Shown here: positions 30,998-34,535 of the stretch, piece by piece | How the letters are laid out: every line of letters starts with the position of its first letter | Numbering within the stretch: position 1 is the stretch's first letter | Assembly: GCA_947307225.1 (NCBI GenBank) | Contig: CAMZIL010000001.1 | Span: 284,120 to 341,967 of the forward strand | Source: an uncultured Candidatus Saccharibacteria bacterium | GTDB taxonomy: Bacteria; Patescibacteriota; Saccharimonadia; Saccharimonadales; Saccharimonadaceae | Reading direction: 5' to 3' | Length of the DNA stretch: 57,848 bases | Position numbers and translations under genes: made by a program | The notes under the pieces: generated by a model | Seen by the model: the letters and a program-made list of their open reading frames with translations, nothing else | What the model was told of the DNA's origin: nothing | The model's database searches: none

Positions 30998-31157
30998 TGC
31001 ATAAATGCGCCGTGCTGCTCCGGTTAGGCCTTGCATTATTTAACGACGACGCATGCGGAGGACCGCATAGAGAGCATAGCTTATAGAGGGCTGGTCTAGA
31101 AGCATGAGCACGAAATTATCCCTGTTGCTCGGATTGTCTAGATGCTATAATTAAATT
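30998..31157. other. Non-coding stretch with hairpins and a 13-nt repeat
   Basis: No open reading frame is convincing here. It contains GCTCCGGTTAGGC (31017-31029), repeated exactly at 31251-31263 inside the structured RNA. A perfect hairpin ATGCGG-AGGA-CCGCAT lies at 31053-31068, and CATGCGG recurs at 31300-31306. It may be a decayed or second copy of the RNA downstream. The promoter of that RNA lies at its right end (TATAAT 31146-31151). Confidence 0.5.
31146..31151 (+). promoter_or_regulatory. -10 box of the structured RNA
   Basis: TGCTATAAT has TATAAT at 31146-31151. Its expected start, about 7 nt later, coincides with the first base of the long RNA helix. A TGTTGC 17 bp upstream is a weak -35 box. 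Confidence 0.6.
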
Positions 31158-31384
31158 GTCTTAAATCAATTTAATAATTTGCACTTAGGCTACAATTCTG
31201 CACTCGCGGAAGCGTTTTTGAAACAACCCGTAAATCCGGGGAGGATCATCGCTCCGGTTAGGCTGTTTCAGTCTAAGTGCAGAAATTGATTTAAGACATC
31301 ATGCGGTGTATTGTCCCCGGATTCATGATGTAACCGGTATTATATTTAGAACAAGACATCGCAAGGTGTCTTATTTTCTTTTTT
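31157..31384 (+). ncRNA. Structured RNA ending in an intrinsic terminator (leader or sRNA), unknown family
   Basis: The 5' end forms a perfect 16-bp helix (31157-31172 with 31283-31298). After an asymmetric loop a 12-bp helix follows (31180-31191 with 31270-31281, one G-U). Inside are a CGC-GGAA-GCG hairpin, a GAAACA/TGTTTC stem and a CCCG/CGGG stem. A second hairpin pairs ACATCATG (31296-31303) with CATGATGT (31324-31331). The third is a terminator, AAGACATC-GCAA-GGTGTCTT (31353-31372), with a T-rich tail to 31384. AAGACATC occurs twice, so the terminator arm has an alternative partner, as in an attenuator. The methylase reading frame begins about 30 nt later. It does not match tmRNA, RNase P RNA or SRP RNA as I know them. 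Confidence 0.6.
31353..31384 (+). terminator. Terminator or attenuator before the methylase gene
   Basis: An 8-bp stem with a GCAA tetraloop (31353-31372) is followed by ATTTTCTTTTTT. It ends the structured RNA and stands between the only visible promoter and the methylase gene. Confidence 0.85.
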
Positions 31385-31388
31385 AGGA

Positions 31389-31420
31389 TTGTGGCGCTAG
31401 GGGTTAGGAGGCGCCATAGC
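31389..31420 (+). repeat. Left copy of an imperfect direct repeat flanking the defence island
   Basis: TTGTGGCGCTAG (31389-31400), then GCCATAGCCG (31413-31422), resembles TTGTAGCGCTAG and GCCATAACCG at 34540-34564. The first block matches 11 of 12. This copy also folds into the GGCGC/GCGCC hairpin around the methylase ribosome binding site. Confidence 0.45.
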
Positions 31421-32555
31421 CGATAATAAAAGCCTTTCAAGGGCAAAAGTTGCAAAACAAGATGAATACTATACTCGCATAGAGGACATCGAAAACGAGT
31501 TGCGCCACTATAAGCACCACTTTAAGGATAAGGTTGTATTTTGCAATTGCGATGACCCATTTGAGAGTAATTTTTTCAAATATTTTGCAATCAACTTCAA
31601 TCATTTAGGGCTCAAAAAATTAATATGTACATGTTACGCTGGTTCGCCAGTTAGTTACACGGAGTTCAATGACTTACCATTGTTTCATAAAAATGAAAAA
31701 TTGCCCTACAAAATCGAAATTACAGAAGTACCTGATTTGAATGGTGACGGAGCGACAGACTTATCGGATATTGAGCTTCTTTTAAAGAGTGATAATAACA
31801 ATCTCACTATATTGGATGGTGACGGCGATTTTAGAAGCGAAGAATCGGTAGCGTTTTTAAAAGAATCTGACATAGTAGTTACGAATCCGCCATTTAGTCT
31901 CTTTAGGGAATATATTGTTCAATTAATTGAAAATAATAAGAAGTTTTTAATAATTGGGAATCCGAATGCACTTCACTATAAAGAAGTATTTCCTTTAGTT
32001 AAAGATAACAAGATATGGGTCGGTCACAAATCAATGAGTTCGGACATGCTTTTTAACGTGAGTGAAGAATTCGGTAATTGGCTAGTTGCGAATAAAAAAC
32101 AAGGGAGCGGTTATCGTATTATTGACGGCGAAATAAAAGGTCGCGCACAAGCTATATGGTATACAAATTTAGACATAGAAAAACGTCATGAGAATCTGAT
32201 ATTGTATAAAAATTATAATCCAATTGAATATCCTAAATTTGACAATTTTGACGCTATTAACGTAAATAAGGTGAGCGATATACCGCGTGATTATGATGGG
32301 TATATAGGAGTGCCAGATAGTTTTATGGACTCATATAATCCGAATCAATTTGAAATACTAGGACGAAGCGGGGACACTGATTGGGTATTTAACGAATGCA
32401 CGTTCTTCACTCCGCCGCCAGAAGATCGAATAGCCTTTTATAAAAAGTATAACCGAACATGGCGATTGCAGAACGTATATCTGCTCGACGAAAACCAATT
32501 GCCGGTAATAGTTTACTCACGTTTATTTATAAAAAGGAGAACCCATGAAAATTGA
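31416..32555 (+). CDS. EcoRI-type adenine-specific DNA methyltransferase, apparent AUA start
   Basis: The product resembles M.EcoRI (DNA N6-adenine methylase) along its length: DIENEL, HFKDKVVFCNCDDP, SNFFKYF, LDGDGDFRSEES, the catalytic VVTNPPFSLFREY and YPKFDNFDAINVNK. The homologous N-terminus (NKSLSRAKVAKQDEYYTRIE) is encoded in frame from 31419, yet no ATG, GTG or TTG exists between the TAG at 31398 and the TTG at 31500. AGGAGG at 31406-31411 lies 4 nt before ATA at 31416, the position expected for the start. Starting at TTG 31500 would remove 28 conserved residues. The gene is much richer in A and T than its neighbours, which suggests transfer. It overlaps the DUF262 gene by 11 nt. Its target sequence is unknown. 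Confidence 0.85.
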   Translation: MADNKSLSRAKVAKQDEYYTRIEDIENELRHYKHHFKDKVVFCNCDDPFESNFFKYFAINFNHLGLKKLICTCYAGSPVSYTEFNDLPLFHKNEKLPYKIEITEVPDLNGDGATDLSDIELLLKSDNNNLTILDGDGDFRSEESVAFLKESDIVVTNPPFSLFREYIVQLIENNKKFLIIGNPNALHYKEVFPLVKDNKIWVGHKSMSSDMLFNVSEEFGNWLVANKKQGSGYRIIDGEIKGRAQAIWYTNLDIEKRHENLILYKNYNPIEYPKFDNFDAINVNKVSDIPRDYDGYIGVPDSFMDSYNPNQFEILGRSGDTDWVFNECTFFTPPPEDRIAFYKKYNRTWRLQNVYLLDENQLPVIVYSRLFIKRRTHEN

Positions 32556-33627
32556 GCTTCATCAAATTAAAATTAAAGATGTCTTTGATGGCTATCGTGA
32601 CAGCGATGAAGAGGGCGTGGTTGGCTATGGCGGTAAATTAGATATTCGTCCAAAATATCAGCGCGAATTTGTCTATAAAGATGCTCAGAGAAATGCGGTG
32701 ATTGATACGATTCGCAAAGAATTTCCGTTAAATGTGATGTATTGGTCGCACAAGGATGATGGTACTTATGAAATCCTTGACGGTCAACAGAGAACTGTTT
32801 CATTCTGCCGTTATATGCAGGGTGATTTCTCCATAGATAATAAGTATTTTCATAGTTTAACTGCCGATGAACGTGAGCAAATTGAAAATTACGATCTCTA
32901 TATCTATATTTGCGACGGTACGGAGAGTGAGAAGCTGGAATGGTTTAAGACCATTAATATTGCAGGCGAGAAGTTGACTGACCAGGAACTTCGTAATGCG
33001 GTTTACGCTGGTTCGTGGACAACTGATGCGAAACGCCACTTTAGTAAAACTGGTTGTGCGGCATATGGCCTAGCAGAGAAGTATATGAATGGCACGCCAA
33101 TCCGCCAGGATTATCTTGAATCGGCTTTGAAATGGATTTCTGGTGGCGAGATTGACGAGTATATGTCAAAGCACCAGCATGACGAGAATGCATCTGAGTT
33201 GTGGCAATATTTCCAGACCGTGATTGCCTGGGTACAAATGTTGTTCCCAAATTACAGGAAGGAAATGAAGGGGTTGGAATGGGGCGAATTCTATAACAGA
33301 TACCACAACAATTCTTATGATGCGCAGAAGATGGAGCAAGAAATTGTTCGATTAATGCAGGACGAAGACGTGACGGCGAAGAAGGGAATTTATCAATATC
33401 TTCTTTGCGGCGATGAGCGCTATTTGAGTATTCGCGCATTTACGGACAACATGAAGCGCGAGGCTTATGAACGACAGAATGGTATCTGCGCGAATTGTGG
33501 TGAGCATTTCGAAATTGGCGAAATGGAAGCGGATCATATTACGCCTTGGAGTCAGGGCGGCAAGACGCTTGCTGAGAACTGCCAGATGCTTTGCCGCGAT
33601 TGTAATCGCAGGAAGAGCGATAAATAA
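32545..33627 (+). CDS. DUF262-HNH nuclease
   Basis: A 360-residue protein. The N-terminal DUF262 domain has the ParB/Srx-like motif ILDGQQRT (about 77-84) that in GmrSD-type systems binds and hydrolyses nucleotide. The C-terminal HNH nuclease (about 305-358) shows CANCGEHF, EADHITPWSQGG, and NCQMLCRDCNRRKSDK with a zinc-binding four-cysteine set. Single-chain proteins of this design act in restriction, in several cases against modified DNA. It starts inside the end of the methylase gene with AAGGAG 6 nt upstream, so the two are coupled. Codon use is closer to the host than that of the methylase. Whether it needs the methylase as antidote is not certain. Confidence 0.87.
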   Translation: MKIELHQIKIKDVFDGYRDSDEEGVVGYGGKLDIRPKYQREFVYKDAQRNAVIDTIRKEFPLNVMYWSHKDDGTYEILDGQQRTVSFCRYMQGDFSIDNKYFHSLTADEREQIENYDLYIYICDGTESEKLEWFKTINIAGEKLTDQELRNAVYAGSWTTDAKRHFSKTGCAAYGLAEKYMNGTPIRQDYLESALKWISGGEIDEYMSKHQHDENASELWQYFQTVIAWVQMLFPNYRKEMKGLEWGEFYNRYHNNSYDAQKMEQEIVRLMQDEDVTAKKGIYQYLLCGDERYLSIRAFTDNMKREAYERQNGICANCGEHFEIGEMEADHITPWSQGGKTLAENCQMLCRDCNRRKSDK

Positions 33628-33638
33628 GGAGGATATAT

Positions 33639-34535
33639 ATGGCATTTTCTGATTTAAAAACTATGGAAAAGGAAGCAGCTTTAACAAAGCTTGCGCTAAA
33701 GACGCTACAGGAACTTGGCGGACAGGCAAATCGCCAAGATATTCGTGAGAAGATTCTTGATTCAGATGAGGAAATTGCTGAATACGAGAAAATATCCAAG
33801 GTGAGCAAAAGGACGGGTGCAGTTTGGAAGCCGTTTAACTGGAATTTTAATTTTGCATTCAAAAATTTGCAGATTGCTGGCTTTGTCGAATATTCGAGAG
33901 GTAGTCAAATTGTGACGTTGACCGAGAAGGGTATCAACGCGGACATCAAAAACCTTGATGTTGAACGAGATATTTTCCCGCTTTGTAATGAATTTTGGGA
34001 GAAGCAAAAAGCCGAAGGGAAGAGCCGCAAAAAGAACGACGAGGAAGATGAGGGCGAAGCCGAGGGCGTTAGCGAATATGACGAGGAGTTTAAAGATAAA
34101 CTCCTTGGCGCGATTGCCAAAATGTCTCCAGCGAAATTCGAAATGTTCTCGCGCGCGCTTCTAAATAAGATGGGTATTGAGTTCACGGAAATAGGTACTC
34201 AGCTAAGTAATGATGGTGGCATTGACGGCTATGGCTATTGTCGAACTGATGATTTTCGCACTTCGCGCGTCGTGATTCAGTGCAAACGTTGGCAGGGCAG
34301 CATCGGTGCGCCGGAAATTAATGGTTTTCTCGGTGCGATGAATCGTTTCCAGGCTGATTACGGCGTATTTATCACGAATTCGCGCTTTACGCCAGCTGCG
34401 CGTGAGGCAGCCCGAGCTGGTACGCCGATTACTCTTATTGATGGCGACGACCTCGTTCGGTTAGTGAAGAAATATGAGCTTTATGTCTATCCAGTTCAAA
34501 CCTACGAACTCGATAGTTTTTATGACATCGAGTAA
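33639..34535 (+). CDS. mrr: Mrr-type restriction endonuclease
   Basis: A 298-residue protein with an N-terminal winged helix (about 12-105, the Mrr_N type), an acidic Lys/Glu linker (about 120-145) and an Mrr catalytic domain (about 165-285). The nuclease core shows NDGGIDGYG and VIQCKRW, corresponding to the D-QxK motif of PD-(D/E)xK enzymes. Mrr of E. coli cuts DNA with methylated A or C. It has a GGAGG ribosome binding site and starts 11 nt after the DUF262-HNH gene, so the three genes form one unit. Codon use is host-like. Confidence 0.93.
   Translation: MAFSDLKTMEKEAALTKLALKTLQELGGQANRQDIREKILDSDEEIAEYEKISKVSKRTGAVWKPFNWNFNFAFKNLQIAGFVEYSRGSQIVTLTEKGINADIKNLDVERDIFPLCNEFWEKQKAEGKSRKKNDEEDEGEAEGVSEYDEEFKDKLLGAIAKMSPAKFEMFSRALLNKMGIEFTEIGTQLSNDGGIDGYGYCRTDDFRTSRVVIQCKRWQGSIGAPEINGFLGAMNRFQADYGVFITNSRFTPAAREAARAGTPITLIDGDDLVRLVKKYELYVYPVQTYELDSFYDIE

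Follow-up and report, generated by a model that had tools for sequence, protein, structure and literature searches.

The closest described systems are transcription attenuators and the expression platforms of riboswitches, in which a 5' leader can form either a terminator or an antiterminator pairing, each excluding the other. The locus analysed here lies in a window (the whole stretch of DNA under analysis, 57,848 nucleotides) from a Candidatus Saccharibacteria genome of ~1.07 Mb, and it shares this arrangement, including a closing helix (P1) that overlaps a terminator arm. Unlike the known systems, it uses two separate strands, the 5' end and a loop segment (M), to capture both terminator arms, and the pairing of M with the terminator tail (segment R) forms together with P1 a pseudoknot that takes in the U-tract and is absent from Rfam. 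The start codon of the downstream gene has a described counterpart as well, since in Staphylococcus aureus an AUA start combined with an extended Shine-Dalgarno (SD) sequence is reported to reach, in poor medium, ~10% of the expression that AUG gives (PMC13009471). The present locus likewise places AUA after a strong SD, and differs in adding a hairpin over the SD and start codon and a putative upstream attenuator, and in standing before DNA methylases. The literature searched yielded no cis-regulatory RNA of Saccharibacteria and nothing relevant on such an RNA in this group or before methylases, in a comparison made without a reported set of 224 candidate bacterial RNAs.

The elements of the leader are as follows, with positions counted along the window.

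31146-31151, + strand: TATAAT, the -10 box of the leader promoter, invariant in a 13-sequence alignment
31157-31384, + strand: structured leader RNA (putative attenuator), ending at the T2 U-tract and conserved in genomes of the same genus
31157-31172 with 31283-31298, + strand: P1, a perfect 16-bp closing helix (read from the sequence and checked by script)
31157-31171 (5' arm) and 31284-31298 (3' arm), + strand: P1 as compared among relatives, covarying in 57 members; its 3' arm overlaps the T1 left arm
31178-31188 (5' arm) and 31273-31283 (3' arm), + strand: P2, the inner helix, with 100% of cells paired in 13 sequences
31219-31225 (5' arm, TGAAACA) and 31264-31270 (3' arm, TGTTTCA), + strand: stem 2, flanking M, with two pairs changed on both sides
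31234-31252, + strand: segment M, the R-complementary stretch within the stem 2 loop, covarying in 57 members and within the window type
31293-31300, + strand: left arm of T1, AAGACATC; the T1 U-tract is absent in the window type and kept in divergent relatives
31296-31303 with 31324-31331 (span 31296-31331), + strand: 8-bp hairpin ACATCATG/CATGATGT (script check)
31303-31322, + strand: segment R, the T1 right arm and the bases after it, partner of M
31353-31384, + strand: T2, an intrinsic terminator, AAGACATC-GCAA-GGTGTCTT followed by a T-rich tract (terminator scan)

The original prediction had described a 16-bp closing helix, an inner helix, an 8-bp hairpin and a terminator within 228 nt, as well as a duplication of AAGACATC, and both reading and script checks located all of these in their places, with the repeated motif at 31293 and 31353. 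Its view of the RNA as highly structured was likewise borne out: 31157-31384 folds with -75.1 kcal/mol compared with a shuffle mean of -48.9 (z = -5.77), and none of 200 shuffles folded as well. The position of TATAAT puts the predicted transcription start at ~31157, in agreement with the proposed start on the first base of the helix, and this position is derived from the -10 box, no -35 match having been found upstream of it. The arms of T2 are cross-complementary to those of T1, and the extended T1/T2 hairpin reaches -27.6 kcal/mol, while the M:R duplex of the window amounts to -32.2 kcal/mol. As a side observation, CTCCGGTTAGGC is present twice, inside the leader (31251-31263) and past the ppa terminator (31018-31030), and may be the remnant of another copy.

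The competing pairings were compared across 57 non-redundant, similarity-filtered members by calculating duplex energies of each member's own arms and of all mismatched combinations, with 10,000 permutations. Matched P1 arms gave -16.1 kcal/mol and mismatched ones -5.6, with the own partner being the best in 49 of the 57 members (p<=1e-4); for M:R the corresponding values were -23.8 and -18.3 kcal/mol (p<=1e-4). Each pairing exceeded all 10,000 permutations, a procedure that reduces the effects of shared ancestry and does not fully remove them. In a core-free test, confined to the three bases flanking the conserved M core on each side and to the flanks of the terminator arm, own partners matched at 5.65 of 6 positions versus 4.39 for mismatched combinations (permutation maximum 4.86), with matched triplets such as GTT/AAC, GCT/AGC, CTG/CAG, CTA/TAG, CCT/AGG and TCG/CGA. 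Within the window type, too, M and R change together (GGGGA/TCCCC, GGGAA/TTCCC and GGGAG/CTCCC). A separate sample, drawn from methylase homologues across the family, supplied five further leaders (L174, L175, L180, L183 and L185); the pairing is kept in L183, and in the other four the core itself differs, with M having changed along with the terminator (CACUC/GAGUG, CAAUC/GGUUG and GGCCACGUG/CACGUGGUC). In most members M:R extends into the U-tract. The overlap between P1 and T1 is just 2-5 nt in many members, so that P1 might form alongside a shortened T1 there.

An intrinsic terminator stands between promoter and gene (T2 at 31353-31384 in the window, T1 with its U-tract in divergent relatives), and P1 and M:R, conserved in the 57 members, are exclusive with the terminator. 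Since both occupy bases that the terminator hairpin needs, we read the leader as an attenuator, and assign a probability of about 0.7 to its being the 5' leader of a restriction-modification operon that works as a cis-acting transcription attenuator. The switch layout proposed originally is supported by these competing pairings, their strong covariation in the relatives compared, a comparison which that prediction had itself suggested, and the lack of an Rfam family, though it had overlooked segment M (31234-31252), the competitor that tells most, and the unusual AUA start.

The comparison shows the 5' end of the RNA pairing, as P1, with a segment overlapping the left arm of T1, and M, placed within the stem 2 loop, to be complementary to the right arm of T1 and the bases behind it. 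In the mechanism that we propose, as the RNA emerges from the polymerase, either P1 and the M:R pseudoknot would form, allowing escape from T1, or T1 would form and transcription would stop, and the outcome would depend on any factor that stabilises P1 or that releases or masks M; the pseudoknot between the M loop and the tail is perhaps an antiterminator. T1 of the window has no U-tract, and so T2 must be the stop there. In the window and in the other methylase types, pairing of the T1 right arm with the T2 left arm while P1 is intact would give read-through, and T2 alone, or the T1 left arm paired with the T2 right arm, would give a stop. Minimum free energy ladders of the window suggest intact P1 with T1-right:T2-left as the first state, after which the T2 right arm would invade P1 and a long terminator would result. 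This probable routing through T2 is drawn from folding energies alone, by nested folding, which cannot score the pseudoknot. A transcript that reads through would be damped once more by the hairpin pairing SD and AUA start, for a net effect of low, conditional expression of the methylase/restriction operon.

The region that follows the leader comprises these features.

31390-31418, + strand: hairpin over SD and start codon, TGTGGCGCT...AGGAGGCGCCATA, with none of its 9 pairs lost in any of 13 sequences
31416-31418, + strand: AUA (ATA) start codon of the methylase, with an in-frame stop (TAG) at 31398-31400; the orthologous leaders L065 and L066 have ATG here
31416-32555, + strand: gene for an EcoRI-type adenine-specific DNA methyltransferase of 379 aa (PF13651, E 3e-130)
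32545-33627, + strand: GmrSD_N + HNH protein, overlapping the methylase end, presumably in the same operon
33639-34535, + strand: Mrr-type restriction endonuclease, presumably in the same operon

The placement of a GmrSD_N + HNH protein and an Mrr-type nuclease straight after the methylase (32545-34535) is an unusual operon make-up. In the protein started at AUA, the match to the EcoRI_methylase profile begins at residue 7, corresponding to profile position 2, and the mechanical list of open reading frames had put the start at TTG 31500 rather than at ATA 31416-31418. Among 19 leaders of the window type, the start codon is ATA in 15, ACG in two (L011 and L013) and ATG in two (L065 and L066), the non-AUG starts being those of the window, L003-L015, L022, L056 and L064. 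Standard gene callers would miss such starts, and a non-AUG, hairpin-locked start would explain a methylase start that they overlooked. The hairpin is compensated in the divergent relatives L064 and L066, and it belongs to the same leader as the putative attenuator. By analogy with the S. aureus case, AUA would keep methylase expression low, and because the start is AUA or ACG in 17 of the 19 leaders and the SD is locked in a conserved hairpin, expression looks triple-damped.

Downstream of the leaders of the same genus, a DNA methylase or methylase-like gene was found in every case, with the family varying: the enzyme behind L005 is Eco57I-like, L008 precedes a shorter N6-type protein with weak profile matches only, and another methylase-like protein, behind L011, matches Eco57I weakly. 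At the site of the window itself, with ppa upstream, genome G028 carries the EcoRI type and G033 an Eco57I-like type behind the same leader, and G038, which has the downstream SPFH and zinc-ribbon genes in common with the window, carries a third methylase type. Sequence identity of the leaders ends at the start codon. In most members, an SD-preceded, co-oriented open reading frame follows shortly downstream.

These observations bear on whether the RNA acts in cis. The original prediction had left the choice between an attenuator and an independent small RNA, and of these the cis-acting attenuator is favoured, since the leader adjoins a co-oriented gene, stays while the methylase changes and is conserved together with the SD/start-codon hairpin. 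An independent RNA gene ending at T1/T2, sealed at both ends by P1 and M:R and acting in trans with the downstream gene as a bystander, would account for the leader having its own promoter, tandem terminators and a very stable fold, and M:R, which pairs the U-tract in most members, could protect its 3' end; we nonetheless consider it unlikely, as independent RNA genes should show random neighbours, whereas most members have a co-oriented gene close behind them. The high identity of leaders followed by differing methylases, the break at the start codon and the different methylase at the same site in G033 and, judged by its downstream flank, apparently in G038 could alternatively reflect a recombination platform, that is, a shared block before exchangeable restriction-modification genes in which the structure is incidental. 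Recombination alone needs no compensatory changes, yet such changes preserve the pairings in diverged members that stand at unrelated sites, before unrelated genes, making this explanation very improbable.

Two other explanations are special cases of the attenuator, and so their probabilities overlap with its own. One is a metabolite riboswitch: an aptamer built from stem 2, the loop of that stem and P2 would stabilise P1 or keep M sequestered. It is in keeping with a closing helix over a terminator arm, a typical expression platform, and with a pseudoknotted core and the motif that recurs around M among small-class members; for the methylase branch, a natural guess at the ligand would be SAM or SAH. 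Against it, complementarity to R accounts for much of the recurrent motif, L174, L175, L180 and L185 have a changed core, Rfam yields no riboswitch match, and the genes behind the class are heterogeneous, encoding mostly secreted or membrane proteins rather than one pathway, and so we regard a riboswitch as a minority possibility, well short of even. The sign of the switch might also be the opposite, with M:R, a long helix that ends in A:U pairs with the U-tract much like a long terminator stem, acting as the terminator and T1 or an internal pseudoknot as the permissive form, in a T-box-like geometry. This we find rather doubtful, for tens of nucleotides separate M from R downstream, which would leave a large loop, and T1 is a compact GC-rich hairpin right before the U-tract in small-class members.

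That the RNA matched no class which could be named from the sequence held up in an Rfam search: at the gathering threshold, Rfam 15 found only tRNAs in the window, and permissive settings gave only sub-threshold chance matches at the locus and in its relatives. A known housekeeping RNA was rejected on this ground and on copy numbers that vary from none to nine per genome. A leader-peptide attenuator was rejected as well, there being no conserved short open reading frame and single-base indels between close relatives (alignments judged by eye) breaking all frames, and a phage origin was set aside after two scans of viral contigs gave no match. The likeness to T-box leaders lies in a GGCACCGC-like segment able to pair with the terminator right arm, but Rfam gave no T-box match, and the downstream genes identified are neither aminoacyl-tRNA nor amino-acid genes.

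Leader DNA matched in 18 of 101 relatives, some weakly, and the leader with its translation-start element was found in 14 of 45 genomes of the same genus (~1/3); a few scattered chance matches apart, the named records with this element are Saccharibacteria MAGs (e.g. UBA2834 and UBA3304). Model R2 matched 42 of 393 genomes of the order, with up to 9 copies per genome. One match, a small-class RNA (L163), came from another order of the same class, and a search of 380 genomes of the phylum gave none outside the class. Genome and copy counts are lower bounds, since the model and pattern searches used strict filters and R2, being sequence-heavy, misses diverged members. Sequence model R1 recovers mostly leaders of the methylase type and, as P1 is near-palindromic, gives scores on the opposite strand too. 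A scan for the architecture recovered 55 of 71 known members and five further methylase leaders; the lack of a U-tract at T1 makes it miss the window. Most of the assemblies derive from metagenomes, and promoters and start sites are predictions. Across the family, 8 of 17 loci with EcoRI-type methylase homologues carry such a leader, as judged by reading, and several others (L176, L178, L179 and L182) show a -10-like box immediately ahead of ATG, apparently giving leaderless mRNAs.

Shorter, sequence-divergent relatives that share promoter spacing, P1 and terminator occur across the order before other genes, mostly ones for secreted or membrane proteins. An N-terminal hydrophobic segment was found in 31 of 42 non-methylase downstream proteins versus 13 of 48 greedy open reading frames of the window (Fisher p 1.7e-5), an excess that is only indicative, since a single genome stretch supplied the background and the downstream proteins include several paralogues. 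Pfam names were obtained for some of these proteins (Fib_succ_major, NHL and OmpA), and by eye the one behind L097 looks like a type III Mod methylase. With the terminator-competing pairings conserved and relatives standing before DNA-methylase and secreted or surface-protein genes, the leaders look like an undescribed family of on/off switches of the ultrasmall Saccharibacteria, a putative new RNA class of a known kind, the transcription attenuator. We give roughly even odds to the full proposal, namely that Saccharibacteria hold an undescribed attenuator family, with up to 9 copies per genome, in which P1 and the pseudoknot of M loop and tail compete with an intrinsic terminator, that it provides conditional expression of restriction-modification operons and of surface or secreted proteins, and that its methylase branch carries a hairpin-locked non-AUG start. 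If true, one RNA switch before DNA methylases and surface proteins would offer a direct handle on how these episymbionts time defence and host contact, and, if its signal were found, possibly a native inducible element for Saccharibacteria genetics. Its architecture, with M set against the terminator right arm and U-tract and P1 against the left arm, can be searched for by pairing rather than by sequence.

The small-class RNA also occurs in tandem, with two copies ~480 bp apart at L089 and two model matches ~190 bp apart at L124. Finally, the leaders or flanks at L129-L137 and L152-L153 resemble one another and stand before large secreted proteins that are paralogues within a genome, one of them with a Fib_succ_major match; these loci are possibly a system of surface-protein variation.
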